64,000 bases of DNA from Natrarchaeobius halalkaliphilus (GCF_003841485.1 NZ_REFY01000004.1:434001-498000); one strand, 5' to 3'; positions 3,020-17,900 are shown, counted from the first letter of the stretch. The notes: generated by a model from the sequence alone, not told the origin. A program made the numbers and translations.

Positions 3020-4156
3020 ATGGCGGCGATCGATCGGGGAGTGCGGATACGAGCGTTCGTACAGACGTGGTTCGCCGTCGGCGTCGTCGTGCTCTTGCTC
3101 GCGACGCTGGTTGGCGGATGGTGGGCGTATCAGGTCAACGTCGTCCCAGACGTCGCGGAAGAAGAGCGGCTGGTCGAACAGTGGGACGAATCCACCGCCT
3201 ACGACCACAGCGCCAGTATCGAACAGGATTCGGTTCCGTTCGAGGAGGGTGAAGTCGTGTCGAACCGACCGATCTACTACACGAACCTCTCGAGCGGGCT
3301 CAACGGGACGTACACCTACGGGTATAGCGCCGAGGACGGGGACGTCTCCGTCACGACCGAGACGCTCTTGCTGATCCGTGCGGGCGAACTCGAGGATCAG
3401 CGCGTCGTCGAAACGTACTGGGAGGTCGCGGAGCCCCTCGAATCGACCAGTGCCGACTCGGTCGGGCCGAGCGACGAACACGCGGTCGAGTTCAGCGTCA
3501 ACGTAACCGACGTACTCGAGACGATCGAGACGGTCGAACGGCAAGTCGGTGCGACGGAAGGGCTGGTCGATGTCCGCGTCGTCTCGGTCACAGATGTGGA
3601 CGGAACCGTCGAGGGCGAGTCACACGCTGACACGTACGAGAGCGAGATGATCATGGTGGTCGATCCCGCGACGTTCAGGGTGATCGAGACGGATACGATC
3701 ACCGAAGATCACCCCTCGTTCGAGACGGTTCAACTCATCGCAGAGCCGTCGCCACACGAGGTGTACGGTTCGATCCTCCTGTTTACCGCAGCGTTCGTCT
3801 TGCTCGTCGCGCTGTCGTTCGCGCGGATCGGCGGATACACCGATCTCTCGGAGAACGAACAGGAGCTGTTACGCCTCGAGCGCGACCGGGCGCAGTACGA
3901 CGACTGGATCACGACCGGGAAGTTCCCATCGGAGCGCGAGTACGAACAGACGGTCCTCGTCGACGATCTCGAGGGTCTGACGGACGTCGCGATCGATACG
4001 AACAAGCGGGTCATCGAGGACACCCAGCTCGGCGTCAGCACCGTGTTGGACGACGAGTACATCTACCTCTACGTCCATCCGAACTCGCCGGCCCGGGACT
4101 GGCTGGTGAACTACGCCGACACGACCCTCGAAGAGTTCGAAGCCAATGCGTTCTGA
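3020..4156 (+). CDS. DUF5305-type membrane protein
   Basis: A 378-residue membrane protein with one N-terminal transmembrane helix (about residues 15-40, FAVGVVVLLLATLVGGWWAY), a roughly 200-residue extracytoplasmic beta-rich domain, a second transmembrane helix (about 250-272, ILLFTAAFVLLVALSFARIG) and a cytoplasmic tail of about 100 residues. This layout fits the haloarchaeal DUF5305 family, which is often encoded next to signal peptidase I genes, and here it lies 81 nt upstream of one. The outer domain may hold or present substrates of the neighbouring peptidase; that is inference from context. Family assignment is from memory of sequence style and neighbourhood. Confidence 0.78.
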   Translation: MAAIDRGVRIRAFVQTWFAVGVVVLLLATLVGGWWAYQVNVVPDVAEEERLVEQWDESTAYDHSASIEQDSVPFEEGEVVSNRPIYYTNLSSGLNGTYTYGYSAEDGDVSVTTETLLLIRAGELEDQRVVETYWEVAEPLESTSADSVGPSDEHAVEFSVNVTDVLETIETVERQVGATEGLVDVRVVSVTDVDGTVEGESHADTYESEMIMVVDPATFRVIETDTITEDHPSFETVQLIAEPSPHEVYGSILLFTAAFVLLVALSFARIGGYTDLSENEQELLRLERDRAQYDDWITTGKFPSEREYEQTVLVDDLEGLTDVAIDTNKRVIEDTQLGVSTVLDDEYIYLYVHPNSPARDWLVNYADTTLEEFEANAF

Positions 4157-4237
4157 AACGCGACCACTGCGTTCTGAACCACGCGTTCACGTCGGGAAAG
4201 CGTGGCGAACCGTCCCACCCGCGACACCTGTCCAGCC

Positions 4238-5377
4238 ATGAAAGTGAGCGATCTCGGCCAGTACACACTCGCGTTGCTGATCGTCCTGATGATCGTCCTC
4301 TTGTTGTTCGGACAGCTGCTGGGACAGCCGTTTATCGTGTTCGTCGAGACGGGAAGCATGGAGCCGACGCTCGAGCCGAACGACGGCTTCATCGCTATTC
4401 CGGCGTTGTTCGCGGGCGAGATCGAAGAAGGCGACGTGGTTCTGTTCGACGCACAGGAACTCGGCGGCGGGGAGCTGACCACGCACCGGGTCGAGGAGGT
4501 GACGGACGAAGGGTATCTGACGAAAGGAGACGCCAATCCGTTCATCGATCAGGACGGCGACGAGCCACCGGTGGCGGAGGGACAGGTCCGATCGGTCGCC
4601 GTTCAGATGAACGGAAACATGGTCGTGATTCCGGGTCTGGGTGCCTCGGTTACATCGATAACGACCACGGTCGAGTCGGTACAGGACCGGGTTTTCTCGC
4701 CGTTCGGGATCGATCCGCCCGACATCGGCACGTTTTCGACCGGCGTCCTCGTGCTGGGCCTCGTCCTGTACATCGTCAGTACGATCCGAGCAACCGGCGA
4801 CAAGCGCGCACGCGATCGCTCCGAGGGGAGTCTGCTCCAGAACGCGGTACTCATCATCGTCATCTTGACGCTGGTGGTGATCATCCCGGTCAACTTCTCG
4901 ATGTTGCTCCCCTCTGGAACCTACCAGTACGAAATCGTTAGCTCGACGGATCCGACGTCGGACGAGCAGGTGATCGGCGTCGGAGAGTCGAGCGAGGTCA
5001 CGTACTTCATGCAAAACAGCGGTCACCTGCCCGTCGTCACGATTTTAGAACCGGCCAGCGACGGCGTCGACGTGCCCGAGGGCTACACGTACGTACCGAG
5101 GGTCTCGGCAGAGAACGTGTCAGTGACGATGCATGCACCCGAGGAAACCGGAGTTCACTTCCGATTCGTCCGCGAGTATCGGTACCTGGTGGTGTTACCG
5201 CCGTCGTTGATCGCGACCCTGCACGCGATACATCCGGTCGTCGCACTCGCCGCGATCAACGTCACGGTCGCGGCCGTCGTCGTTACCGTGTCGGTCGCGA
5301 CGATCGGCACGAACCGGATTCGAACGCGCTCGAAGGGACGCGAGTTGACGATCTGGGAACAACTTCGACGCCGGTAG
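4238..5377 (+). CDS. Signal peptidase I, extended archaeal (S26B) type
   Basis: Membrane signal peptidase that removes signal peptides from exported proteins. After a first transmembrane helix (residues 9-30) comes the catalytic box FVETGSMEPTL with Ser40; TTHRVEEV gives His83, the archaeal/eukaryotic replacement for the bacterial Lys; GDANPFIDQDG supplies the conserved Asp region. At 379 residues it is much longer than a minimal archaeal enzyme: two more helices (about 165-187 and 197-222) are followed by a beta-rich outer domain and a final hydrophobic pair near the C terminus. The ATG at 4238 is chosen; a GTG at 4202 would add 12 unremarkable residues. It sits between a DUF5305 gene and several exported proteins, suggesting a dedicated SipW-like peptidase. 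Confidence 0.9.
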   Translation: MKVSDLGQYTLALLIVLMIVLLLFGQLLGQPFIVFVETGSMEPTLEPNDGFIAIPALFAGEIEEGDVVLFDAQELGGGELTTHRVEEVTDEGYLTKGDANPFIDQDGDEPPVAEGQVRSVAVQMNGNMVVIPGLGASVTSITTTVESVQDRVFSPFGIDPPDIGTFSTGVLVLGLVLYIVSTIRATGDKRARDRSEGSLLQNAVLIIVILTLVVIIPVNFSMLLPSGTYQYEIVSSTDPTSDEQVIGVGESSEVTYFMQNSGHLPVVTILEPASDGVDVPEGYTYVPRVSAENVSVTMHAPEETGVHFRFVREYRYLVVLPPSLIATLHAIHPVVALAAINVTVAAVVVTVSVATIGTNRIRTRSKGRELTIWEQLRRR

Positions 5378-5505
5378 TCGATCGTGGGAGTCACTCGAGT
5401 GGACACTGCGTCCCCTCGTTCCTGTCCGAAGAGACATCGAGAAAGTGTTAAGTCTCGAGGGTTAATATTCCGTAACAGACGACCGGAACTCCGGGGGGAG
5501 ACAGC

Positions 5506-6057
5506 ATGAGTACAATCGTCAGATCTGAATCTAGAGAGGAGAAAAACGCGCTTTTTACCGCACTGGGGAATCATCGACGCAGGTACGTGCTGTACGCCTG
5601 CAATCAGGCGAACGGGCGAACGAAGCTATCGGACGTGGCCGAACAGGTCGCCGCCTGGGAGTACGGAAAGCCCATCGACGAGATCACGTCGACCGAACGA
5701 AAGCGCGTCTACACGTCGATTCAGCAACACCACCTCTCGAAACTCGAGGACGCGGGATTGCTGGAAGTCGCGAACGGAAACATCCGCATCACGGATAAGG
5801 CCGAAAATCTCGACGTCTACCTCGAGATCGTGCCGGAAAAGAACATTCCGTGGGCGACGTACTACCTGGGGCTCGCCGCCATCGGTGCGTTCTCGGTCGG
5901 GATCGCCCACGTCGGCTGGCTTCCGGACGCAGTCTCCGTATCCGTGGTCGCCGCACTGTTCGCGTCGGTCCTCGCCGTCTCGGCGGCGATCCACAGCATC
6001 GAATCCCGACAGATGACGTTCAGCGCGGCGGACGTTCCGCCGGAGGTCAGCCGATGA
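5506..6057 (+). CDS. DUF7344-type winged-helix regulator with two membrane helices
   Basis: A 183-residue protein. Residues 12-105 form an HTH domain of the haloarchaeal DUF7344/ArsR-like kind: FTALGNHRRRYVLYAC, then TSTERKRVYTSIQQHHLSKLEDAGLLEV, then a wing with NGNIRITDKAE. Two hydrophobic helices follow (about 118-137 and 143-162), so it is probably membrane-tethered. A strong Shine-Dalgarno-like ggggggag lies 6 nt before the ATG, and an AT-rich box (gttaatattc) about 40 nt upstream is a likely promoter. Its position between the signal peptidase and the exported proteins makes it the best local candidate regulator of this island. Family name is from memory. Confidence 0.82.
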   Translation: MSTIVRSESREEKNALFTALGNHRRRYVLYACNQANGRTKLSDVAEQVAAWEYGKPIDEITSTERKRVYTSIQQHHLSKLEDAGLLEVANGNIRITDKAENLDVYLEIVPEKNIPWATYYLGLAAIGAFSVGIAHVGWLPDAVSVSVVAALFASVLAVSAAIHSIESRQMTFSAADVPPEVSR

Positions 6058-6124
6058 GACACGGAGAAGACGAAAGCGTAACCGACGGGATCGATCCACG
6101 GGTCGATTCGCGCTCGGAGAACCG

Positions 6125-6616
6125 ATGAACCGACGCGTGTTCGGTCGCACGGTTGCAGTCGGTATCGGATCCGTGATCGCGGGGGGATGTCTCGGCGGAG
6201 GAGCCGACGGGGGCTCCACGTCGGATCCGGATTCCGCTCAGACGGACGACGACGCCGCGTCGAGTTCCGACGAGGGGTCACCAGCGGACGACGGACGCGA
6301 ATCGGCGCAGGCGCTGGAAGCGGGGTTCGACTCGCGAGGGCTCGACGTCCTCGAGAGCGAGGTCGACGGCTCCGACCGAATCGTGATGACGATACAGACG
6401 AGCGGGAACCTCGATGAGGACATCAGGATCGCGGGGGGTGCCTACGCAACGGAGGCACAACAGATAGAGCGCGATCTCACCGTTCGGACCGAGGATCGAG
6501 GTTTGCACCAGGAAACGTTCACGATCGAACGGGACTGGGCCGTCCGGGTCGCAACTGACCGGATGAGTGACGAGGAGTACCTAGAGCGGATCGAGGAGAC
6601 GCGAACGAACAACTGA
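6125..6616 (+). CDS. Tat-type lipoprotein, unknown function
   Basis: A 163-residue exported lipoprotein. The N terminus NRRVFGRTVAVGIGSVIAGGC has twin Arg, a hydrophobic stretch and a lipobox ending in Cys21, followed by the Gly/Asp/Ser-rich linker typical of haloarchaeal lipoproteins. The remaining 100 residues (GFDSRGLDVLESEVDGSDRIVM onward) look like a small mixed alpha/beta domain that I cannot place. The gene starts 67 nt after the DUF7344-type regulator and is probably cotranscribed with it. It could be an envelope partner of the exported proteins further downstream. Confidence 0.75.
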   Translation: MNRRVFGRTVAVGIGSVIAGGCLGGGADGGSTSDPDSAQTDDDAASSSDEGSPADDGRESAQALEAGFDSRGLDVLESEVDGSDRIVMTIQTSGNLDEDIRIAGGAYATEAQQIERDLTVRTEDRGLHQETFTIERDWAVRVATDRMSDEEYLERIEETRTNN

Positions 6617-6944
6617 TACGGGTCGTCGTACTGTTTTACTGGTGATCCGCTGCTCCGCTCGAGAGGTCACTGATACCGAATCACAACAGACCGTACGAGT
6701 GGGTGTAACTCGGTGGGTTACGGTGAGGCTCGACTCCTCGGAGATCGAATGTGGACGAAAACGATAGATAGAGGGATCTGGCACAGCCTGAACGACAACA
6801 GTAGTCCTCCGGGGCGATTGAACGGTATAAACGATCGTCTGGCTCAGCCTGAACCGGTTCTGGGGGTCGGATCCCGAATTATCGGGTTCGCCTTGAACCC
6901 TTCTGGCAGCACAATACAAAGGGGACAGACACGAATGGTGATAT
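6617..6944 (+). promoter_or_regulatory. Intergenic control region of the exported-protein operon
   Basis: This 328-nt gap holds no convincing gene. It contains a near-perfect 17-bp direct repeat, tctggcacagcctgaac at 6777-6793 and tctggctcagcctgaac at 6838-6854 (16 of 17 identical), spaced about 61 bp or nearly six helical turns. A TATA-like aatacaaa lies near 6913-6920, about 28 nt before the ATG at 6945. A ggtga match just before that ATG could serve as a ribosome binding site. The repeats look like paired operator sites for a regulator such as the DUF7344-type protein upstream. Confidence 0.45.
6777..6854 (+). repeat. Pair of 17-bp direct repeats, candidate operators
   Basis: Copies at 6777-6793 and 6838-6854 differ at one base. 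Both lie upstream of the first gene of the exported-protein operon. No transposon or coding explanation is visible, so a protein binding role is the simplest reading. Confidence 0.5.
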
Positions 6945-7508
6945 ATGGGAATTACACGTCGAAACACGATTATTGGACTTGGAGTACTGGCTGGCGGAGC
7001 GGGACTCATCGGCGGCTCCGGCGCGTTCGACAGCGTCGAGGCAAACCGGAGCTTCGACGTCAGCGTCGAAGGGGACGCGGGCGGACTGCTTGGCCTCGCG
7101 GTCACCGACTCGATCATCGCGACGACCGAAAGCGCCGGTGCAGGCGAGAACGACGTCATCGCGTTTGACCTGGAGGACGCCGACGACGGATCCGACCGGG
7201 CGCTCAACGAGAACGCCGTCACGGATTTCTACTCGGTGTTCGATATGACGAACAACGGCTCGCAGACCGTCGAGGTCAGTGTGGACACCGGCGAGGCGAA
7301 CGGCGTCTCGTTCGTCGTCGTAGAGGAGCGAGCTGACAACGGGAGCGTCGTCGGCGAAGACGTCGATCTGGAAGGTGACACGGTCGAGCTCGAGCCCGGA
7401 GAGACGGTCAGCGTCGATATTTCGATCGACACGACCGACGGTGGGTACACCGAATCGGAGGACGAAGACCCCTACCAGATGACCATTACCGCTGAATCGA
7501 CGGAATGA
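6945..7508 (+). CDS. Exported DUF1102-like protein 1
   Basis: A 187-residue exported protein. The signal region has RRN followed by a hydrophobic stretch (IIGLGVLAGGAGLIGG) ending in SGAFDSVEANRSF. That ending closely resembles haloarchaeal DUF1102 proteins (typically GAF-x-SVEADR) and loosely resembles the TasA/camelysin substrates of SipW peptidases (AYFSDTE). The mature part is acidic and beta-rich, without Cys, and ends with a short strand-rich tail. Its stop overlaps the start of the next gene by ATGA, implying translational coupling. Likely an extracellular or cell-surface structural protein; no enzymatic motif is visible. Confidence 0.8.
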   Translation: MGITRRNTIIGLGVLAGGAGLIGGSGAFDSVEANRSFDVSVEGDAGGLLGLAVTDSIIATTESAGAGENDVIAFDLEDADDGSDRALNENAVTDFYSVFDMTNNGSQTVEVSVDTGEANGVSFVVVEERADNGSVVGEDVDLEGDTVELEPGETVSVDISIDTTDGGYTESEDEDPYQMTITAESTE

Positions 7509-8011
7509 TCCAACGGCGACAGGTGGTTCTCGGGCTGGGTGCACTCGCGGCGGGAGCGGGACTCATCGGCGGCTCCGGCGCGTTCGACAGCGTCGAGGCG
7601 GACCGTGACGTCTCCGTCGAGTTCAGCGGCGACGGGGACGCCGTCCTTGGGATGAGCTCGGCAGACGCCGATCGGGAGTTCGTTACGGTCGAGGCCGACG
7701 ACGACGGCGTCGTCGGAATGACGATCGAACGGCTGAACCAGAACGCACGCACGGCCGTGAGCAACCTGATCGCGTTTACCAACAACGGAAGTCGACCGAT
7801 CGAGACGATTACGGCGACGATCGACGACCGGAGCGAAAACGCCGCAGTCGTCGTCCACGACGATCTATCTGGGATTCCATCGATCGGCGTCGGGGAAACG
7901 GTCGTCGGCCTCGGACTCACGATCGATACGCGCGAGGAGAACGGTCACGCGGGAAGTCCGGATGTCATGGGAGAAATACGGATTCACGCGTCGACGCTCT
8001 CGGAGGAGTAA
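7505..8011 (+). CDS. Exported DUF1102-like protein 2
   Basis: A 168-residue paralogue of the gene before it, starting in a 4-nt ATGA overlap. The signal peptide (QRRQVVLGLGALAAGAGLIGG) is followed by SGAFDSVEADRDVSV, almost identical at the predicted processing region to its neighbour, including at the DNA level around 7010-7040 and 7560-7600, which suggests local duplication. The mature region is a compact acidic beta-type domain (AVLGMSSADA..., LIAFTNNGSRPIETI). Probably secreted and processed by the signal peptidase encoded 2 kb upstream. Function unknown beyond family resemblance. Confidence 0.8.
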   Translation: MIQRRQVVLGLGALAAGAGLIGGSGAFDSVEADRDVSVEFSGDGDAVLGMSSADADREFVTVEADDDGVVGMTIERLNQNARTAVSNLIAFTNNGSRPIETITATIDDRSENAAVVVHDDLSGIPSIGVGETVVGLGLTIDTREENGHAGSPDVMGEIRIHASTLSEE

Positions 8012-8032
8012 CACCAGAGGAGGTAACACGAT

Positions 8033-9013
8033 ATGGCACCAATACGGCGTCGGAGTACGCTCATCGGGATGGGAACGATCGTATTCGGAGCCAGCGGCTT
8101 CATCGCCAGTGGTGCGTTCGAACTCGGCTCTCAGGAGAGTACCGGGAGCGACTGGGTTCGCGTCGCCAGCATCGACAACCCGGTCGAGGCAGAGGAAACC
8201 GAAATCGACGGCGGTGATACGAGCGAGTCGGACGGCGAAGACGACGAGGAAGACGAAGAAGACGACGACGACTCGGTAGGAAGCGGGGGATCCGATGACG
8301 ACGAAACGGACGAAGACGGTGGGTCGGACGACGAAGAGGAAGAAGAACTCGAAGAAGAACTCGAGGAAGAAGAACTCGAGGAAGAAGAACTCGAGGAAGA
8401 AACAAAGGAAGAGGAAGCGCTAGAGGAAGAGGACGACGAAGACGACGACGGATCGAGCGGCGGCGGATCGGGCGGCGGACCGAGCGACGATCCGGATCCG
8501 GTCGAAACCCGGATTCAGGTCGTTACCGACCCGAGCAACGAGAACAATCTCGTCGGTCAGATCGACTGGAGCGGTCGAATGACCGAATCCGATTCCGTCG
8601 TGGGGAACGAGGACGGATTCCTCGAGCGGTTTTCGGTCGCGAACGCGAACAAGGGGGCGGTATCGCGCGTCGGGTTCGTCGACGAGAACGGCTATCCGAC
8701 GGATCGAATCGCCTTTCTCGTCTCGAACGTTGGGAATCCGGACACGCCGGGCAACGGCGGCTTCCCCGTCGAACTCGAGCTCGAGCTGTACGACGAGGAC
8801 GGATCTGCGGTCGATCCGGCCGGACAGATCAGGTTCCCATACCGCGTCGTCACTCCCGGCGGTGGCGTCACCGCACGGGGAACCGATCTGCGCGAAGCGA
8901 CGGTCGATCTCCCGGTGGCCCACGTCGTCGAGACAGTCATCGAGATCGATTCACGCCAGGGAACGGACGCACTCGAGCGAGTTGCGTACGTCGACTTCCC
9001 GGCGGCGGAATAA
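8033..9013 (+). CDS. Exported protein with long poly-acidic tract
   Basis: A 326-residue exported protein with the same signal layout (RRRSTLIGMGTIVFGASGFIASGAFELGS). Residues about 62-145 form an extreme Asp/Glu tract including repeated EEELE units, then a Ser/Gly linker, then a folded domain of about 170 residues (IQVVTDPSNENNLVGQIDW to the end). A very good ribosome binding site, gaggaggt at 8017-8024, lies 8 nt before the ATG. The acidic tract could act as a flexible surface spacer or bind cations such as calcium. It belongs to the same operon as the flanking exported proteins. No characterised domain recognised in the C-terminal part. Confidence 0.78.
   Translation: MAPIRRRSTLIGMGTIVFGASGFIASGAFELGSQESTGSDWVRVASIDNPVEAEETEIDGGDTSESDGEDDEEDEEDDDDSVGSGGSDDDETDEDGGSDDEEEEELEEELEEEELEEEELEEETKEEEALEEEDDEDDDGSSGGGSGGGPSDDPDPVETRIQVVTDPSNENNLVGQIDWSGRMTESDSVVGNEDGFLERFSVANANKGAVSRVGFVDENGYPTDRIAFLVSNVGNPDTPGNGGFPVELELELYDEDGSAVDPAGQIRFPYRVVTPGGGVTARGTDLREATVDLPVAHVVETVIEIDSRQGTDALERVAYVDFPAAE
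8323..8405 (+). repeat. In-frame 15-bp repeat coding for EEELE units
   Basis: Tandem near-identical units of the type gaagaagaactcgag encode the Glu/Leu core of the acidic tract in the surrounding gene. The array looks able to expand or shrink in 15-nt steps without changing frame. Confidence 0.7.
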
Positions 9014-9020
9014 GAGCACG

Positions 9021-10547
9021 ATGGCCAGAAAGAACCGACGAAATCGAACGGGATCGAGCGGACTGAGCCGTCGCTCTGCGCTCGCGCTGATCGGCGGCGG
9101 CGGGCTGATCGGCGTCGGTGCCTCCGGTGCGTTCGATGCTGCGAGCGTCAACCGTCCGTTCGGCCTGCCGGTTCGAAGCGACGACGAGGCGCTCCTCGGT
9201 ATCGATCTCTACGATCCGACCGCATCGAGCGGATCGGAAGTTCGGATACTCCAGCTATACAACGGCTTTTCGGAGACCTTGACGACGGTCTCGGTATCGA
9301 CCCTTTCGACGGGCGGGATCACGCTCGATATCGACGATCCGCTCGTCTCGGGCGCGTTCGAACCGAACCAGCGGATTCCGGTGTACGCGACGATCTCGTG
9401 TGGCGAAGAGCGAACGGAGTCGGTCGATCTCGAGATCGTGGTCGAAGGCGAAACCGAACGGGTCGCGGCGACGCGTTCCATCGATGTGACGTGCCAGCGA
9501 GCCGAGTCGGATCCGATTCCGGCCTGCGATCTGGGTCCCACCGGCGGCGAAACGGCGGTCTCGCTGCGGGGGAACGACTCCGAAGACGAGCTTTCGGGTG
9601 AACTTGACGTCACGATGTCGGGGAGTACAAGCGTCGCCGGCAACGTCGACGTCACCGGGGACGTGGACCTCGATGGCAATTCTCAGATCGCCGGCGATCT
9701 GATCGCCGGTGGCTCCGTGACGCTGGAGGGGAGCGCCACGGTCGACGGGGACGTCGTCGTCGGCGGCTCACTCGAGATGTCCGGTGGCGCGCAAGTGGGC
9801 GACGGAGCCGCAGCGATCGAGGTCTGTGGTGATGCGTCGTTCAGTGGTGGCGGCGGTTCGAATCTCGGAATCGATACCCTCACCGTCGGCGACGATCTCG
9901 ACGTATCGGGCGGCTACCGGATCGATGCAGAAGGCGACATCGTCGTCAACGGATCGGTCCACTGGAACGCAAATCAACTGACGACGACGGGAGGCGATCT
10001 CTCCGTCGGCGGCGATCTCTCCGTCTCCGAGGGCGCAAAGCTCGAGATCGACGGTGACATTCTCGTCGACGAATCGGTCGCCATGAACGGCAACCGACTC
10101 GAGACGACGGCGGGAGACCTTTCTGTCGGCGACGACCTCGAGGTGTCGAACGGACGAACCGAGATCGACGGTGACGTCCTCGTCGACGGCGCACTCGAGA
10201 TGAACGGAAACCGACTCGAGTCGACGAGCGGGGACATCGTCGTCGAAGACGACGTAGCCGCAAACGGCGGAACGCTCGCGGTCGGTGAGACGGGACTGAT
10301 CGACGTGAGTGGAGCGTTCGGGATGACCGACGGATGGGCGGTTACCGTCGGTGACGTGACGGTGGGCGAATCGCTCGATATCGATACCGGTGAAATGACC
10401 GCGTCGGGCGATACGGTGACGGTCGCTGGAGACCTCAACATGGGTCACGGGCAGGGCTACCCGGAGATCGAAGCCGACGTGGTGATCGGCGGTTCGTTGA
10501 ACAAAGATCGGGGATCCATTCAGGGAACGATCACGTACGAGGACTAG
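9021..10547 (+). CDS. Exported DUF1102-like head fused to bactofilin-like beta-solenoid
   Basis: A 508-residue exported protein. The start at 9021 (MARKNRRNRTGSS) is chosen because it follows the previous stop by 7 nt and gives a twin-Arg signal (LSRRSALALIGGGGLIGVGASGAFDAAS). Residues about 35-170 are a DUF1102-like beta domain with two Cys. From about residue 190 on, the sequence is a regular beta-helix of GDL-x-V and GSV-x-L steps like bactofilins (polymer-forming proteins), including three roughly 40-residue repeats at about 313-352, 353-391 and 392-431 (MNGNRLE-T-GDLSVGDDL). Bactofilins are normally cytoplasmic; this copy is predicted to be outside. It may polymerise as an extracellular fibre or surface scaffold. 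Confidence 0.82.
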   Translation: MARKNRRNRTGSSGLSRRSALALIGGGGLIGVGASGAFDAASVNRPFGLPVRSDDEALLGIDLYDPTASSGSEVRILQLYNGFSETLTTVSVSTLSTGGITLDIDDPLVSGAFEPNQRIPVYATISCGEERTESVDLEIVVEGETERVAATRSIDVTCQRAESDPIPACDLGPTGGETAVSLRGNDSEDELSGELDVTMSGSTSVAGNVDVTGDVDLDGNSQIAGDLIAGGSVTLEGSATVDGDVVVGGSLEMSGGAQVGDGAAAIEVCGDASFSGGGGSNLGIDTLTVGDDLDVSGGYRIDAEGDIVVNGSVHWNANQLTTTGGDLSVGGDLSVSEGAKLEIDGDILVDESVAMNGNRLETTAGDLSVGDDLEVSNGRTEIDGDVLVDGALEMNGNRLESTSGDIVVEDDVAANGGTLAVGETGLIDVSGAFGMTDGWAVTVGDVTVGESLDIDTGEMTASGDTVTVAGDLNMGHGQGYPEIEADVVIGGSLNKDRGSIQGTITYED

Positions 10548-10741
10548 TCGTCGCCGGCAGGGGCGAGAGAACGGATCGGAATACGTCGACGGAACTCGAA
10601 CGCACCGGTTGAAGCTATGTTGTCCGTGTGAGGAAACCCGAAGACGCCGTATACTGGCGTTAAAAAGTGTTTCTGCCTATACTTCGATTTTCGAAGTACC
10701 GAGTGACGTCTCGGATACCTCACGCGTACCCTCGAGAGAAG

Positions 10742-10781
10742 TCACATGAAGTCCTCGATTCCCGATTGTTTATTCTTGTCG
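10742..10781 (-). pseudogene. Displaced original 3' end of polC
   Basis: On the minus strand this short stretch reads DKNKQSGIEDFM followed by a stop. It is the expected C terminus of a haloarchaeal PolD large subunit, and it is now separated from polC by the integrase-bearing insertion. QSGIEDFM fits a PCNA-interacting (PIP) box, Q-x-x-hydrophobic-x-x-F-hydrophobic. The first 14 bases are the left copy of the direct repeat found again inside the intact polC gene. The sequence to its left is GC-rich host DNA and that to its right is AT-rich element DNA, so this is the old gene end left outside after integration. Confidence 0.85.
10768..10781 (-). repeat. att site, left copy (14-bp direct repeat)
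   Basis: gtttattcttgtcg, identical to the copy at 12188-12201. On the minus strand it codes DKNK in both places. Outside these 14 bases the two sites diverge immediately, which fits a site-specific recombination core. Confidence 0.82.
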
Positions 10782-10816
10782 AACGAATTATGACCTTTGC
10801 TAAATTCCCGACAGAG

Positions 10817-10825
10817 ATATAAATA
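10817..10825 (+). promoter_or_regulatory. TATA box of the integrase gene
   Basis: atataaata centred about 24 nt before the integrase ATG at 10845, which fits a leaderless archaeal transcript. It lies inside the element, so expression does not depend on the host site. Confidence 0.65.
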
Positions 10826-10844
10826 GAGAGAATGAAGGTCAATT

Positions 10845-12026
10845 ATGGCGAACAGTCCAAGGGCGAAATTAAAAGTAAGGCGAGAAAAATTAGAAGGGCA
10901 TATTGAGAAAGGTGAAATCGATCCTGATACGGGTAATGCAATCCGAGAATTGCTTGATGCATACGACGAAAACAAGGTGATGGTAACTAAGCCAAAGGGT
11001 GAGAGTCATCGAACACCACAGACCTTAATGGCGTGGTTGTATCGATTGATGGTTTTTGCCCAGTATCGGAATCTCACTGAATCTGAAGCAGACGATATCA
11101 ACCGTGATGTGCAAAAGATGCATTCAGGGGATCATCCCCATGTCCAAGATAAAGGACTGAAGAAAGGGACATTAAGAGCATATCAAGCGGCTGTTCGGAA
11201 ATTCTATGGTTTTTATGATTTTGGGGTTGATCCAAACGATATCCCGCTATTCGACAAGGAAGAAACGTCGGTTGAGCCAAACGATATGCTCACAAAAGAC
11301 GAGATTCATGAAGCACGGGAAGTGATTGATAATCCTCGAGACTTACTGGTTTATGATCTACTTCTATACACCGGCCAAAGGCGCGAAGCTTTGCGTACAA
11401 TCCGAATCAAGGATGTGAAACCTCAAGAGGGAACATATCGGCTTAATCCTGAAGTAGACGGTCTGAAGGGCGCAACGGAACGAAATGGGAATCGTCCACT
11501 GCTTGGAGCAAAAGCAACAGTCCAAGATTGGATCAATAATTATCACCCGGACCCTTCCAATCCTGAAAACTACCTGATTACAGCTAGACCGGGATATTCT
11601 CGACCGGACCCTACAAAACCAGTTAGCGGGGAGACTATCAGACAAGTCATGCTAAAGGTCAAGGAAAAAACAAATATTACAAAACCGATGCATCCCCACG
11701 CCATGCGTCATAATCACGTTACAATTGCCAAGCGTGATTATAATATCCCTGACGATACGATCAAATATCTAATCGGACACTCGGCTGATTCAACAGTGAT
11801 GGAATCAACCTATGCACATCTATCGGGTGACGACCACGTTCAACGTGCGGAGGAAGCTTTTGGAATCAGAGAACCAGAGGAAGAATCAGCATTCACACCT
11901 GAAGTGTGTCACGTTTGTAATCAACCACTCGAGCCGAATGCTAAGGCTTGCTCCAATTGTGGAACAGTCTATACACCCGATGCACAAGCTACTCAAGAGC
12001 AAATACAGGAAGATATGTATGAATAG
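10845..12026 (+). CDS. Tyrosine recombinase (integrase) with C-terminal zinc ribbon
   Basis: Site-specific recombinase of 393 residues, predicted to catalyse integration and excision of the element. The N-terminal 140 residues form a SAM-like core-binding domain (LKKGTLRAYQAAVRKFYGFY). The catalytic set is visible: Arg179 or Arg180 (YTGQRREAL), His285-x-x-Arg288 (HAMRHNH), Gly311-His312 (LIGHSADS) and nucleophile Tyr323 (ESTYAHL). A zinc ribbon follows with Cys355, Cys358, Cys369 and Cys372. Codon use is AT-rich (many aaa, aat, tta), unlike every neighbour, so it is recently acquired. A second ATG 13 nt upstream is out of frame. The gene is intact, not split by integration. Confidence 0.92.
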   Translation: MANSPRAKLKVRREKLEGHIEKGEIDPDTGNAIRELLDAYDENKVMVTKPKGESHRTPQTLMAWLYRLMVFAQYRNLTESEADDINRDVQKMHSGDHPHVQDKGLKKGTLRAYQAAVRKFYGFYDFGVDPNDIPLFDKEETSVEPNDMLTKDEIHEAREVIDNPRDLLVYDLLLYTGQRREALRTIRIKDVKPQEGTYRLNPEVDGLKGATERNGNRPLLGAKATVQDWINNYHPDPSNPENYLITARPGYSRPDPTKPVSGETIRQVMLKVKEKTNITKPMHPHAMRHNHVTIAKRDYNIPDDTIKYLIGHSADSTVMESTYAHLSGDDHVQRAEEAFGIREPEEESAFTPEVCHVCNQPLEPNAKACSNCGTVYTPDAQATQEQIQEDMYE

Positions 12027-12134: not shown

Positions 12135-15100
12135 TCATTTGTCGTTGCTATCGGGGCTACCACCCATGAAATCCGCAAGACTTGTGGGTTTATTCTTGTC
12201 GTTTTCGAATATACTCTCGAGGGCCTGTTCCAGGACCTCTAGACGCTGTTTCGTGTAGTCGCGACAGTCGTACTCGTCTGCGACCTGAATCGCCGTCTGC
12301 ATGTACTTGTTCACCGAGCCCTTGTGGACCGTGAGATTGACCCGACCGCCACACTCTCGACAGTCGCCGGTCAGGGGCATCCGCCTGAACTTCTCGCCGC
12401 AGTCGAGACACCGGGTTTCCTGGCGCGAGAAGGCCCGCAGATTGCCGATCAGGTCCGGCAGGAAGTGGTACTCGATAACCCGCTCGGCGACGTCGGTCTC
12501 GTCGACCGCCGCGAGTTTCCGCGAGAGCTCGAGTTGAGCGTCCATCTTGTCCATCATGGATCCGAGCGTCTTGTACGCCGAGAGGTCGGGTCCCATCGCG
12601 ATGTCGGTGGTGTCGTGGGTGTGCCGAAAGCCGGTGTACTCGCCGTCGGTCCCGAGGGTGTCCTCCCCGGTCTGAATGTCGATCGATTCGGGGTCGGCCT
12701 GTTCCAGGGTCGCTTCGTAGAACTCCCGGGAGTACTGCGAGACGATATCCATGTTGTGCGCCTCGTCGTCGATTTCGGACGGATCGATGCGAGAGGACAT
12801 GACCAGCGGCGCGTCCATCGAGTTATGGGCGTAGAGCCAGTTAGCGGTGAAGATCGGCTCGCCGCCGACCTGCAGATCGTATAGGTAACCGTCGTACTCG
12901 ACGCGTTCGATGGACGTGATCCGGAGGTACGAGAGATCACCGTCGACCAGCGGACGGATTGCCTCGAGTTTCTCTTCGGCTTCTTCTGGAAGGTCTCGCT
13001 CGTCGAATTCCGTGACTATTTCCTCGAGTTTCTCGAGCGAGATGTTGTCGCGTCGTTTCAGATATTTTGGAACGAGTCGGGTGATCCCCGTGATGTCCAT
13101 CTCACGAATCTCCATCAGTTCGTCGGGGATAGAAACCACGAGACTCTTGGGTTGGTACGGCTCTTTGTCCTGAAGGATTTGTTCGAGCGGATTCCGAGTT
13201 GCGCCGCCGGAAACGGAAACCGTATAGATCGGCTGTCGTGAAGCGCCGCGTTCGCGCCGCGAGACGTTCGCGACGAGTCCGAGGCGATGACAGAGGTAAA
13301 CGATCCCGTCTTTGACGTCCTCGCTCGTCGTGTGGAAGTTGATTCCGGTGTAGTTGTCGTCGCTCGGCTCTGAACCGTCCCCCGCGATGAACCCGCGGAG
13401 AAACGCGAGTACGACGTCGTTCTCCGCACGAAGGATGCAGTCGGGAACGATCTTTTCGCTCGAGTTGTACGAGTCGCAGTCTTCGAACCCGAGTTCGTAC
13501 AGCACGTCGAAGAATACGGCCGGGAACGCGACCTCGTAGGCCTTGTTCGACCAGCGAACGCTCGGTTCACACCCGAACGAAGCTTCACCCGTTTCGACGA
13601 CTCGGTCGACGAGTTTTTCGTCCCCGTTGTGAATCACGGGTCGAGTACCGGAGAGCGATCCTTCGGCGACGAACATCCCAAGGAGCCACGCGAAGTCTTC
13701 GTCAACGTCGAGATGTCGGTGGATACAATCGGACGAACCCGTCCACCCGACCGAACAGTCGTCGGGGAGCGGTTGTTCACCGTGCTCTGTCTCGATATCC
13801 TCGAGCGTCGATCGGCAGACTTTCTTCTTCGAGAGCCGGTAAGAGATCCCACCGTCGAACGCGACTCGCGTCTCGCTTCCTCGTTTCGACTCGTCCCAGA
13901 CGTCGGTCAGCCACGCTTCGTGTTCGTCGTCGAGCAGCACGTAGGGATCTTCGACGCACTCGAGCACGTCGATCGTCGTCTCGATCGGTTCGACCTCGAG
14001 CGTTTGCGGTGCGACGATCAGGTCGCCCTCTTCCAGATCAGAACCGGCGATCTCCTCGATACCGTCGTCGTACCGGAAGAGACTGTGATCGGTCGTGATC
14101 TCAAGTTCGCGTCCGAACTGGGTCGAGACTCGCAGCAGTTCCTCGCTGTCGTCGGCCTCGTACCGAATCGCCTTCTCGATGGGTTTCGGCTCGGCTTCGT
14201 GGTTCTCGTCGAACGCGTAGGTCGTCCAGCCCTCGAGCGCAGCGGTCTTCTTTTGGAACTTGCCGTCGATCTCGATCGGCACCTCGAGTTCGTCCCAGAA
14301 CTCGTCGAAGGTCATGAACCGGAGGTTACCCTGAGGATCGAAGGCGATCAGTCGCGAGTCCTCCGCGACGCTGCCGCCGCGCTTGTCCGGGAGATACGAC
14401 CGCGAGAAGTTCAACAGTCCGTCCATGAGCAACATCACGCAATCCTCGTCTCCGTCACACTGGGCCGTATGCAGGCCGTTCGCAATGAGCGTGTGTGTCT
14501 CCGCAACCGTGAGACAGTACGTGTAGTCGACATCTGACGGGACGAACTGGACTCGTTCTACTATATCAACCTCCGGACTGCCACCATCGACAACTCCGGA
14601 TACAGCGTCGATCGATCCGTCTCGAGCGGTGTCGGTCGGTAACGGTATCCGATCCCCAGTTTCGAGTTCACTCGCGGCGATCCGTTCGAGGCCGTCGTCC
14701 CAGGCGACCATCGTGTGGTCCGGCGTTACGGTCAGCGATCGACCATTGCAAGTCTCGATCCGAACGAGGTGGTTGGGCGCAGGATGCTTCGAAATCGACT
14801 CGACCGGCCGTTCGATCGCTCGTCCGGAGTCCTCGATCGACGGAACAGTGATCGTCCCTTCGAGATCCTGAATCAGCGTCCCGAAGTCGTCTTCACGTGG
14901 ATTCGTGAGCCGAGATTCGACGAATTCCTCGATCGGCTCCTCGCGACGGTTACCCGATTCATCGTTGTAGCGGATTGTCGTCTCCGGGTGGAAACAATTC
15001 CGCCGTTTCGCGGCGTGAAAGTACGGATGAGCGTATCCGACTGCGGCGCTCGTGAAACCAATCACCCTTCCGACAGTTGCCGCGCTCGTGTGCGGAGCCA

Positions 15101-17900
15101 TCCCGAACACTAACTCGCCAACGAGTTCCTGCCGGTCGTCGATTTCATAGAAGGGATCGAGACCGTAGTACTGCTCGAGGAGGTCGTCGATGAAGTCGGC
15201 CGTCTGCATCATGTGCTCGGCTGCGCCGTCGGAGAGGACGATATCCTGAACCTTGAGTTCGACCAGCTGGTCGTCGTGGGTCAGCGGATCGTCGTGGATA
15301 TCCGCCTCGTAGCCGAGAGCCTGAAGCTGGCCGACGTCGACGTCGAGTTCGCTCGCCCGGACGGACGTCACCGGGAGATCGGTCATGTCGTAGCGAACGG
15401 TGCCGTCCTTGAACGAGGAGACGTCGTGTTTCGCACGCAGGATCCCCTTTTCGATCGGCTCGGGGATCTTCGTTTCCGAGGTCAGTCCCTTGACGCCTTT
15501 GAGGATCTCGAAGGCGTTCTCGCGTTCCCCGACGGACTCGAGTGCGTCGCGGTACTCCTCGTGGATGTCGATTTCGCGGTTCTCGACGCAGGTGGCCTCG
15601 CGTTCGCAGTGGCCACACTCGACGCGTCCGGCCTCGTCCGGCTCGATGCGCTGGTCGCAGTCGGGACAGCGGTAGTCGGGCGTCGTCCGTTCGTCGCAAT
15701 CTGGACAGCGGTTCTTGAACGTCTCCGTTCCACAGCTCTCACAGCGCTTTCGGCCGATCTGGACCTCGACGACGCCGGGCGTATCGGACATCGTCTCGGC
15801 GTGCGTAGCCGCATCGGCAACGTTTCGCTGTTGGCCGCCGGCTTCACCGATCGGAAACAGGGTGTGAACCGGCGGGCTCAGGTCCCGTCGCTCGGATTTC
15901 TCCGGGCGCCCCATCCGATTTCCAACGCGAGTTGGGGCTCGCTCGCGGACCGCGAAGGGAGCGATCTCGTTGACCGCCTCGGTGGCGTTGTCGCCGGCCG
16001 TTTCGTGGCCCCAGTTTCGCGCGCGCTCGGAGAGATCGTCACGACACCAGGTTCGTTCGAGTTCGATGATCGATCCTCGAGTTCGATCGTCGGAGCCGGC
16101 GGCTGCGCCGTCGGTCACCGCCTCCCGTGGCTCACAGCCGAGCGCTCGAACGAACGCCTGCCAGTCGTCGATCTCGATCCGGTTTTCGTCCGGTCGCTGG
16201 CGGTGTTCGATCGCGATCGCCTCGAGAGAGTCGCGCGTCCGTTCTTCGTACTCGAGGACGAGCGTCTCGTCGTCGTCTTCGATCCGGCCGGCAGCGGTCG
16301 CATCCGCGAGGTCACAGAACGCCTCGACCGAAAGGTCGTGCCAGAGGTAGGTGTACTGGGGATGAAGCGGCGCGTCGTAGCTCGTCGCCCACTCGAGAGC
16401 GTCCTCGACGTCGGGGAACTCGAGGTCGATGCGAGGGTCGTCCTCGAGGGCCTGGACGTCCGCTCCGGCGGCCGCGACGTCCTGGATCCACCACTCGTAG
16501 ACGTACGACGCCGGCGAGAGCGGACGGTTGTTCTCGACGAACTCGCCGTAGTTGACCAGGTACTCCCCCGCGTCGAGGATCTTCTCGACGCCGTTTCTGA
16601 TCTCGAGTGCCTCCTCCGGGTCGTCGATCCGACGAACGTCGCCGTTCGCCAGCTTGACCGTGGGACCGTCGATGCTGTCGACGGGGACGATTCCGTGGGC
16701 CTTTCCCGGCCGCTCGGTCTTGATCTGGGTCCCGGTCGCGAGGAAGTCATCGACCAGATGCATCGTGGCGGGATGGACGCCACCGGTCGCAAAGCCGTGG
16801 TTTCGAGCGCGGCCGTAGCGGAGACGAAAGCCGCCCTTCGCGCTGGGATGTGAGAAAACCGGACGGCCGGCGATCAGGTCTCGAAGGAACTTCGTCGAGG
16901 ACTCGGCTCGTGGCGGGCCAGCGGAGTCGTCGACCGGTTCGGAGTCGACGTCGACCGGTGCGGACGATTCGTCCTCGTCTACGGTCTCCTCGCCGGCTGC
17001 GTCTTCCTCGCCGACTTCGGTTTCGCCCTCGTCGGCCGCGTCCTCCGCGTCGGCACCGTCGGCGTAGTTGCCGTCGATGAGATCCTGTAGCCAGGGCCAG
17101 TCGATCTCGTCGAGATTTCGGGTGTAGCGCTGAATTTTGGGCGCTTTCAGCGCGATACCCTCACCGAGGACGAGACACATGCCGCCGCGGGCGCTGTTCG
17201 TATCCACCCGATCTAGGTCCCGAAAGCCCGAAACTTCCTCGTCACCGGTCGCCTCCCCGTCGAGCATGATCGGGAGGTGTTTGGCGATGAACTTCGCCTC
17301 TTTCGCCTTGGGCGTATACTGGAGACCGGTCTCGTTGTCGTACAGGGCGATCTCCTCCGCGTAGCGTTCGACTTCCTCCTGGCGGACGCTGTATTGCTCG
17401 ATTCCCACGAGCGCACGCGTGTAATCCGCGACCAGCACCGAGAGCGCCTGTGCGGTCCCGCCCGCAGAGCGAATCGGACCCGCGTAGTAGACGTTGACGA
17501 ACTCCGTCCCGTCGTCGTTCGTCAGAATTTCGACCCGATCGATCCCCTCGATCGGCGCGGCGACGACCCCCTCGGTCAGCAGCGCGACCGCGGTTCGGAC
17601 GGCCCCTTCGACCTTGCCGGCTTTCGACTCGTAGTCCCCGACGCGACCCTCCGCGAAATCCTCCGCCAACTCGAGGGCGGCCTCCTCGCGTGACATCTCA
17701 CCCTCGAGTTCGCGAACGCGCTCTGCGACGCCGTCGATGCCGAGAATGTTCTCGACGCGGTCGGCCATGTCCTTTGCGACCGGAATCTCGACGTCGGGTT
17801 CGGGATCGCCGCCGCGTTCTTTGGCCCGCTCTGCGACGTCGAACGCCTCCTCGAGTCCGGATTCGAGCCGATCGAAGTACCGTTCGTCTTCTTCGCGCAT
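12135..17900 (-). CDS. polC: DNA polymerase D large subunit (DP2) with two inteins
   Basis: Catalytic subunit of the archaeal replicative polymerase PolD. The 1921-residue precursor holds two inteins (residues 969-1147 and 1177-1693); removing them leaves 1225 residues, normal for haloarchaeal DP2. Visible family features: the N-terminal block YYAGPIRSAGGTAQALSVLVADY, a poly-acidic insert near residues 280-330, a zinc cluster near 725-790 (CESCGTETFKNRCPDC, CPDCDQ, CGHCE), the catalytic region around HPYFHAAKRRN / CDGDEDCVMLLMDG, and a C-terminal zinc finger CLDCGEKFRRM...CRECGG. The last residues (KPTSLADFMGGSPDSNDK) come from the integrated element rather than the original gene end at 10742. 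It starts 1 nt after the PPC-domain gene stop, so the two form an operon. Confidence 0.96.
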   Translation of the reverse strand: MREEDERYFDRLESGLEEAFDVAERAKERGGDPEPDVEIPVAKDMADRVENILGIDGVAERVRELEGEMSREEAALELAEDFAEGRVGDYESKAGKVEGAVRTAVALLTEGVVAAPIEGIDRVEILTNDDGTEFVNVYYAGPIRSAGGTAQALSVLVADYTRALVGIEQYSVRQEEVERYAEEIALYDNETGLQYTPKAKEAKFIAKHLPIMLDGEATGDEEVSGFRDLDRVDTNSARGGMCLVLGEGIALKAPKIQRYTRNLDEIDWPWLQDLIDGNYADGADAEDAADEGETEVGEEDAAGEETVDEDESSAPVDVDSEPVDDSAGPPRAESSTKFLRDLIAGRPVFSHPSAKGGFRLRYGRARNHGFATGGVHPATMHLVDDFLATGTQIKTERPGKAHGIVPVDSIDGPTVKLANGDVRRIDDPEEALEIRNGVEKILDAGEYLVNYGEFVENNRPLSPASYVYEWWIQDVAAAGADVQALEDDPRIDLEFPDVEDALEWATSYDAPLHPQYTYLWHDLSVEAFCDLADATAAGRIEDDDETLVLEYEERTRDSLEAIAIEHRQRPDENRIEIDDWQAFVRALGCEPREAVTDGAAAGSDDRTRGSIIELERTWCRDDLSERARNWGHETAGDNATEAVNEIAPFAVRERAPTRVGNRMGRPEKSERRDLSPPVHTLFPIGEAGGQQRNVADAATHAETMSDTPGVVEVQIGRKRCESCGTETFKNRCPDCDERTTPDYRCPDCDQRIEPDEAGRVECGHCEREATCVENREIDIHEEYRDALESVGERENAFEILKGVKGLTSETKIPEPIEKGILRAKHDVSSFKDGTVRYDMTDLPVTSVRASELDVDVGQLQALGYEADIHDDPLTHDDQLVELKVQDIVLSDGAAEHMMQTADFIDDLLEQYYGLDPFYEIDDRQELVGELVFGMAPHTSAATVGRVIGFTSAAVGYAHPYFHAAKRRNCFHPETTIRYNDESGNRREEPIEEFVESRLTNPREDDFGTLIQDLEGTITVPSIEDSGRAIERPVESISKHPAPNHLVRIETCNGRSLTVTPDHTMVAWDDGLERIAASELETGDRIPLPTDTARDGSIDAVSGVVDGGSPEVDIVERVQFVPSDVDYTYCLTVAETHTLIANGLHTAQCDGDEDCVMLLMDGLLNFSRSYLPDKRGGSVAEDSRLIAFDPQGNLRFMTFDEFWDELEVPIEIDGKFQKKTAALEGWTTYAFDENHEAEPKPIEKAIRYEADDSEELLRVSTQFGRELEITTDHSLFRYDDGIEEIAGSDLEEGDLIVAPQTLEVEPIETTIDVLECVEDPYVLLDDEHEAWLTDVWDESKRGSETRVAFDGGISYRLSKKKVCRSTLEDIETEHGEQPLPDDCSVGWTGSSDCIHRHLDVDEDFAWLLGMFVAEGSLSGTRPVIHNGDEKLVDRVVETGEASFGCEPSVRWSNKAYEVAFPAVFFDVLYELGFEDCDSYNSSEKIVPDCILRAENDVVLAFLRGFIAGDGSEPSDDNYTGINFHTTSEDVKDGIVYLCHRLGLVANVSRRERGASRQPIYTVSVSGGATRNPLEQILQDKEPYQPKSLVVSIPDELMEIREMDITGITRLVPKYLKRRDNISLEKLEEIVTEFDERDLPEEAEEKLEAIRPLVDGDLSYLRITSIERVEYDGYLYDLQVGGEPIFTANWLYAHNSMDAPLVMSSRIDPSEIDDEAHNMDIVSQYSREFYEATLEQADPESIDIQTGEDTLGTDGEYTGFRHTHDTTDIAMGPDLSAYKTLGSMMDKMDAQLELSRKLAAVDETDVAERVIEYHFLPDLIGNLRAFSRQETRCLDCGEKFRRMPLTGDCRECGGRVNLTVHKGSVNKYMQTAIQVADEYDCRDYTKQRLEVLEQALESIFENDKNKPTSLADFMGGSPDSNDK
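12188..12201 (-). repeat. att site, right copy (14-bp direct repeat) inside polC
   Basis: gtttattcttgtcg, the second copy of the element boundary repeat. It lies in frame near the end of the polC reading frame and codes DKNK. Everything downstream of it in polC (down to 12135) is element-derived. Confidence 0.82.
12822..14372 (-). other. Intein 2 in PolD DP2 with LAGLIDADG endonuclease
   Basis: Residues 1177-1693 (517 residues) interrupt LPDKRGG / SMDAPLV. Block A begins with Ser1 (SVAEDSRLIAF), block B is LEITTDHSLFRY, and the end is FTANWLYAHN with canonical His-Asn and Ser+1. Two LAGLIDADG motifs are visible, LLGMFVAEGSL (acidic residue Glu1413) and FLRGFIAGDGS (Asp1508), so the homing endonuclease may be active. 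Intein 1 lies only 29 extein residues away. Confidence 0.93.
14460..14996 (-). other. Intein 1 in PolD DP2 (mini-intein, Cys1, C-terminal Gln)
   Basis: Residues 969-1147 (179 residues) interrupt AAKRRN / CDGDED. Block A starts with Cys1 (CFHPETTIRY), block B is LTVTPDHTMVAW with the conserved T-x-x-H, and blocks F/G are YTYCLTVAETHTLIANGLHTAQ's parts ending in Gln instead of Asn and Ala instead of the usual penultimate His; the next extein residue is Cys1148. Its size leaves no room for a homing endonuclease. A C-terminal Gln with Cys+1 at this polymerase site is known from the Pyrococcus abyssi PolII intein. Splicing is therefore plausible but with a noncanonical last step. Confidence 0.9.

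Follow-up and report, generated by a model that had tools for sequence, protein, structure and literature searches.

The region from 3020 to 10547 of the window (the whole 64-kb stretch of DNA analysed, C4:434001-498000 of a haloarchaeal genome of 3.5 Mb) carries a signal peptidase gene, two associated membrane protein genes and a structural operon, all on one strand (Table 1). Every gene named in an earlier note on this DNA, made from the sequence alone, is found where that note placed it, including the poly-acidic protein and the beta-solenoid, while the lipoprotein-like gene that opens the structural operon was omitted from it. The label "DUF1102-like", given there to two of the exported proteins, is not borne out: a Pfam search of the locus proteins returned no DUF1102 match at E values up to 1. 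The DUF7344 protein is membrane-tethered as described, with two hydrophobic spans near residues 121-166, and is presumed to be a regulator. The last exported protein is listed as an ORF from 8730, and its signal peptide fits the ATG start at 9021; for the signal peptidase, the ATG at 4238 (residue 13 of the listed ORF) is the probable conserved start.

Table 1. Genes of the locus, with positions counted from the first nucleotide of the window.
Feature	Position	Strand	Basis
DUF5305 membrane protein, 378 aa	3020..4156	+	PF17231 E 2.4e-48; hydrophobic spans near 8-39, 246-273
Taf-type signal peptidase (SPase)	4202..5377	+	TIGR02228 archaeal signal peptidase I, SEC11A profile, model, tree
DUF7344 winged-helix protein, two C-terminal TM spans	5506..6057	+	PF24035 E 8.9e-23
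Tat-type lipoprotein-like gene, RR signal, GGCLGG lipobox	6125..6616	+	homologues in other loci
Pilin/adapter-like protein 1, TafE-like	6945..7508	+	TafE E 3.4e-22 (below cut-off), PDB 9p0a
Pilin/adapter-like protein 2, TafE/TafA-like	7505..8011	+	TafE E 7e-21, TafA E 3.7e-9 (below cut-off)
Exported poly-acidic-linker protein	8033..9013	+	C-terminal domain conserved in subtype; homologues in the same position in L092, L161, L182-L185
TafC-like N-terminal domain + bactofilin-like beta-solenoid	9021..10547	+	TafC E 9.1e-19 (residues 18-161), below cut-off

Directly after the island (10547-12026) is an AT-rich tyrosine recombinase gene (45% G+C vs. about 62%). No tRNA genes were found in the 64-kb window. 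A phage origin was considered and rejected: among the proteins tried, the only PHROGs match is this downstream integrase. Further along, at 12135-17900, is a 1921-aa ORF that by eye resembles the large subunit of archaeal DNA polymerase D, with putative intein-like insertions.

The two pilin/adapter-like proteins match the "Pilin" of PDB entry 9p0a ("Structure of Natrinema sp. J7-2 Tafi pilus") at E values of 1.7e-9 (protein 1) and 5.2e-10 (protein 2), and a profile search gives E 7e-40. An AlphaFold model of 6945-7505 (mean pLDDT 76) also has 9p0a as its best fold match (Z 9.2, rmsd 2.6 over 116 residues). Next in rank are the bundling pilus of Pyrobaculum at Z 8.0 and, at Z 7.0, the Sulfolobus 0406 filament. 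The Pyrobaculum pili (7ueg) and the Sulfolobus threads (7pnb) have a similar beta-sandwich subunit fold; they are filaments of distant archaea, and sequence identity is low (7-12%). Tat-fimbriae (tafi) are a kind of system already described in haloarchaea (Galeva et al., iScience 2025 28:111793, as cited in PMC12687288); the details of tafi used here are those given by the NCBIfam names, the PDB title and that one citing paper. The matches of the locus proteins to the NCBIfam Taf equivalogs fall below the cut-offs (TafE, 79 of 155 bits; TafA, 36.9 of 190; TafC, 67.8 of 410), as do those of a close homologue of the 9p0a Natrinema tafi pilin (L060), and none is a strict TafA.

As read from the sequence, each of the four exported proteins has a twin-arginine motif followed by [GA]SGAF. 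Their processing regions, in gene order, are GGSGAFDSVEAN, GGSGAFDSVEAD, IASGAFELGS and GASGAFDAAS, and the signal of pilin-like protein 1 is MGITRRNTIIGLGVLAGGAGLIGGSGA|F. That these regions are nearly identical had been pointed out in the earlier note, and the motifs are exact; it did not mention that each of these signals is of the twin-arginine (Tat) type. Codon patterns for [GA][ST]GAF, which also let in Cys, Trp or Arg at the second position, occur at 32 sites (18 + 14) across the 3.5 Mb genome. Just six of these follow a twin-arginine signal: besides the four of this locus, a second island contributes one and the sixth is an orphan, so the four motifs are not a chance occurrence. We likewise rejected the idea of a general haloarchaeal Tat motif, as the twin-arginine-linked sites are limited to the two islands and the orphan. 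[GA][ST]GAF after a twin-arginine signal offers a simple rule for predicting substrates. An orphan TafE-like gene (L013:9250-9810) has an ATGAF signal and no peptidase nearby.

The position of the cut can be estimated from 9p0a, the chain of which comprises 188 residues in the fold library, the last aligned one being numbered 215; residue 28 by phmmer numbering is the F of GTGAF. If the 9p0a model is contiguous, the resolved pilin starts at F28 of ..GTGAF, and cleavage probably falls at A|F or a residue earlier. TasA, which is cut by an ER-type peptidase, has Phe at P2' (PMC10269814).

The SPase scores 52.9 bits against TIGR02228 (cut-off 51.85), and residues S52, H95 and D116 are invariant among 49 aligned sequences, with T94-H95-R96 and G109-D110 also invariant; S52, H95 and D116 align with human SEC11A in a profile match. 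Family score and Ser-His-Asp residues identify it as having a Sec11/S26B catalytic domain. It resembles Sec11/S26B signal peptidases in catalytic pattern and fold but differs from them in having further TM spans and an Ig/PapD-like domain; the earlier note had called the peptidase extended. In the structural model (pLDDT 81), TM1 is followed by the catalytic domain, the further TM spans, the beta-domain (residues ~239-330) and a last TM, a layout that would put both the catalytic domain and the beta-domain outside. The closest folds to the beta-domain are MSP/PapD-like Ig folds, including usher-pathway chaperones (rmsd 2.3-2.6), with Z about 6, a value at which the likeness to chaperones may mean just a common fold. 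The beta-domain is conserved in this extended SPase type; the only Sec11 outside both islands of the genome (C1:661141) is without the C-terminal half, i.e., has no beta-domain. In the tree, the window SPase belongs to a fully supported set of seven from at least three families, together with those of Halonotius, Halostagnicola, a Salinarchaeum MAG, a Haloferacaceae MAG and archaeon A07HN63. The Ig/PapD-like domain (window 4916-5192) is unannotated in Taf-type signal peptidases. Those of Halonotius (L094-L097) have long acidic C-terminal tails, with ORFs of 684-765 aa.

Profile searches with the SPase and the pilin-like family, run over 41 related whole genomes, found 57 extended SPases and listed 150 pilin-like matches. 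A pilin-like match lies within 15 kb of an extended SPase in 128 of the 150 listed (about 1.4% expected), figures that tilt somewhat to islands since the profiles were made from island members. The remaining 22 listed matches lie away from any extended SPase, some of them on short contigs, and diverged orphans may be undercounted. None of the 150 is near another type of Sec11. Conversely, 54 of the 57 extended SPases have a pilin-like match within 10 kb, and all 33 genomes having pilin-like matches also carry an extended SPase. DUF5305, present in 33 of the 41 genomes, neighbours an extended SPase in almost every locus inspected. Among named loci longer than 14 kb (n = 67), DUF5305 is found in 65, DUF7344 in 62 and TAF genes in 63, motif counts being partly circular here because TAF genes were detected by homology plus motif. 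The four loci without TAF genes are those of Halonotius, in which the structural operon lies elsewhere in the genome and includes TafE-like proteins, an acidic-linker protein, a TafC-like protein and, in three of the four, the lipoprotein, whose gene stands first. Co-occurrence in other haloarchaea, which the earlier note had proposed as a check, is seen in this proximity, in a gene order shared with two MAGs and, without linkage, in Halonotius.

This linkage supports well the idea of a dedicated peptidase, and the four exported proteins beside it would be its substrates. The linkage is not absolute: the Halonotius modules are apart, and the window genome has an orphan substrate candidate. These two exceptions, together with the ordinary Sec11 catalytic domain, would suit a second general signal peptidase that has no dedicated substrates and is linked to the pilin-like genes by operon co-inheritance. 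However, the genome retains another, distant Sec11 without a beta-domain, this SPase type is rarely found in the absence of TAF genes and accompanies them even when unlinked, and its extra domain is conserved; we consider a general role unlikely.

The remaining exported proteins vary between loci. The acidic linker is missing in L098, and L161 has another segment, not acidic, in its place. The tail of the TafC-like protein is a solenoid in the window, in L092 and in Halonotius, and another domain in L161. In the window, this tail scores 20.4 bits against Bactofilin PF04519 (cut-off 27.9) and has a weak PF18886 match; it can be described as having solenoid-like repeats only. A signal and head that stay constant while the tail changes would be in keeping with a tip or anchor protein, which is the role we infer for the TafC-like protein. 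The earlier note had instead suggested that the four products could form an extracellular matrix or sheath, which would be an amorphous surface layer rather than a fimbria. A coating role would agree with a beta-solenoid and a poly-acidic protein, and related TasA fibres serve as matrix scaffolds, but the nearest solved relative is a pilus (9p0a), and neither the acidic linker nor the solenoid tail is a conserved core, both being decorations that vary. With a Tat-fimbria of solved filament structure as the closest known system, a matrix or sheath is less likely than fimbriae, and we give it a low probability.

The parallel drawn earlier with Bacillus tapA-sipW-tasA holds in part. Both loci have an ER-type peptidase beside, and linked to, its cognate exported proteins, with Ala-Phe in the cleavage region, and the model of the window pilin matches an archaeal bundling pilin described as TasA-like. 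In contrast, the window has a different regulator and no TasA sequence match was found; TasA is a Sec substrate, the unprocessed precursor of which blocks Sec in E. coli (PMC10269814). We rejected membership of the SipW-TasA system on the basis of the SipW score (NF046067, 27.4 bits against a cut-off of 190) and of the Tat signals. TasA and CalY are not among the PDB profile matches or fold matches listed, and the connection runs via 7ueg alone: archaeal bundling pili have been termed TasA-like, and such archaeal filaments are donor-strand assembled (PMC9715654, PMC9674648). TasA is thus a fair analogy, one step removed.

Tafi (NCBIfam NF052520-NF052523, 9p0a) is closer. The window shares with it twin-arginine signals, TafE- and TafC-like subunits and a related pilin fold, and the pilin genes of its relatives adjoin the same kind of SPase, DUF5305 and DUF7344. 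The window differs in its scores below the equivalog cut-offs, in having two TafE-like proteins and no strict TafA, in the solenoid on the TafC-like protein, in the extra lipoprotein and acidic-linker protein, and in its own SPase clade. The gene order of the window recurs in two MAGs (L092 and L161), each with a further TafE-like gene that is missing from the window, and a homologue of the lipoprotein-like gene is present in L161. It is very improbable that the window holds a reduced cluster no longer making fimbriae, as the lack of a strict TafA and of a pilin-like gene between 6616 and 6945 (where L092, L161 and Halonotius have the extra TafE-like gene) might suggest, given that no reading frame is broken, the peptidase retains its catalytic residues and the same gene order is found in different families.

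We conclude that the locus is very probably a divergent Tat-fimbria (tafi-like) locus of two modules: a machinery module of DUF5305, the dedicated Sec11-type signal peptidase and DUF7344, and a structural module of the lipoprotein, two pilin-like subunits, the acidic-linker subunit and the TafC-like protein with its beta-solenoid tail. In the mechanism proposed, subunits would be exported by the Tat route and cut at or next to A|F of [GA]SGAF by the membrane-bound SPase. The freed N-terminal segment would act as a donor strand that fills in the beta-sandwich of the following subunit, and a thin fimbria would result; the TafC-like and acidic proteins may cap, tip or anchor it. DUF5305, the presumed assembly partner of the SPase, and the outer Ig-like domain of the SPase would hold subunits before assembly, and DUF7344 would regulate the system. 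What is new is the subtype, with its lipoprotein, acidic-linker protein and beta-solenoid-tailed TafC-like protein, and the extra SPase domain that in the model resembles pilus chaperones. The subtype extends Tat-fimbriae, in patchy distribution, over at least three haloarchaeal families, and the Halonotius genomes show that machinery and structural modules are separable.

We tentatively suggest, as a possibility rather than an expectation, that the SPase does two jobs, cutting the pilin precursor and then holding the subunit in its outer PapD-like domain until the next donor strand arrives. Support for this comes from the conservation of the domain, its absence from the third Sec11, its predicted outward position and its likeness, at Z values that may mean just a common fold, to usher-pathway chaperones among other Ig folds. 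If true, a single membrane protein would serve as both chaperone and peptidase in this assembly route. This domain may explain the usher-free assembly of such pili.

Other islands of this kind were also observed. A second island in the same genome (L012:6113-12054; C4, about 61-67 kb) comprises DUF7344, SPase, DUF5305 and several TAF-like genes, its SPase belonging to another SPase clade. Further copies are present in plasmid records of Halostagnicola larsenii and Natrialba magadii; on the N. magadii plasmid pNMAG01, a solenoid protein annotated as "polymer-forming cytoskeletal" (L205:1880-2698) lies beside a pilin-SPase-DUF5305 cluster.
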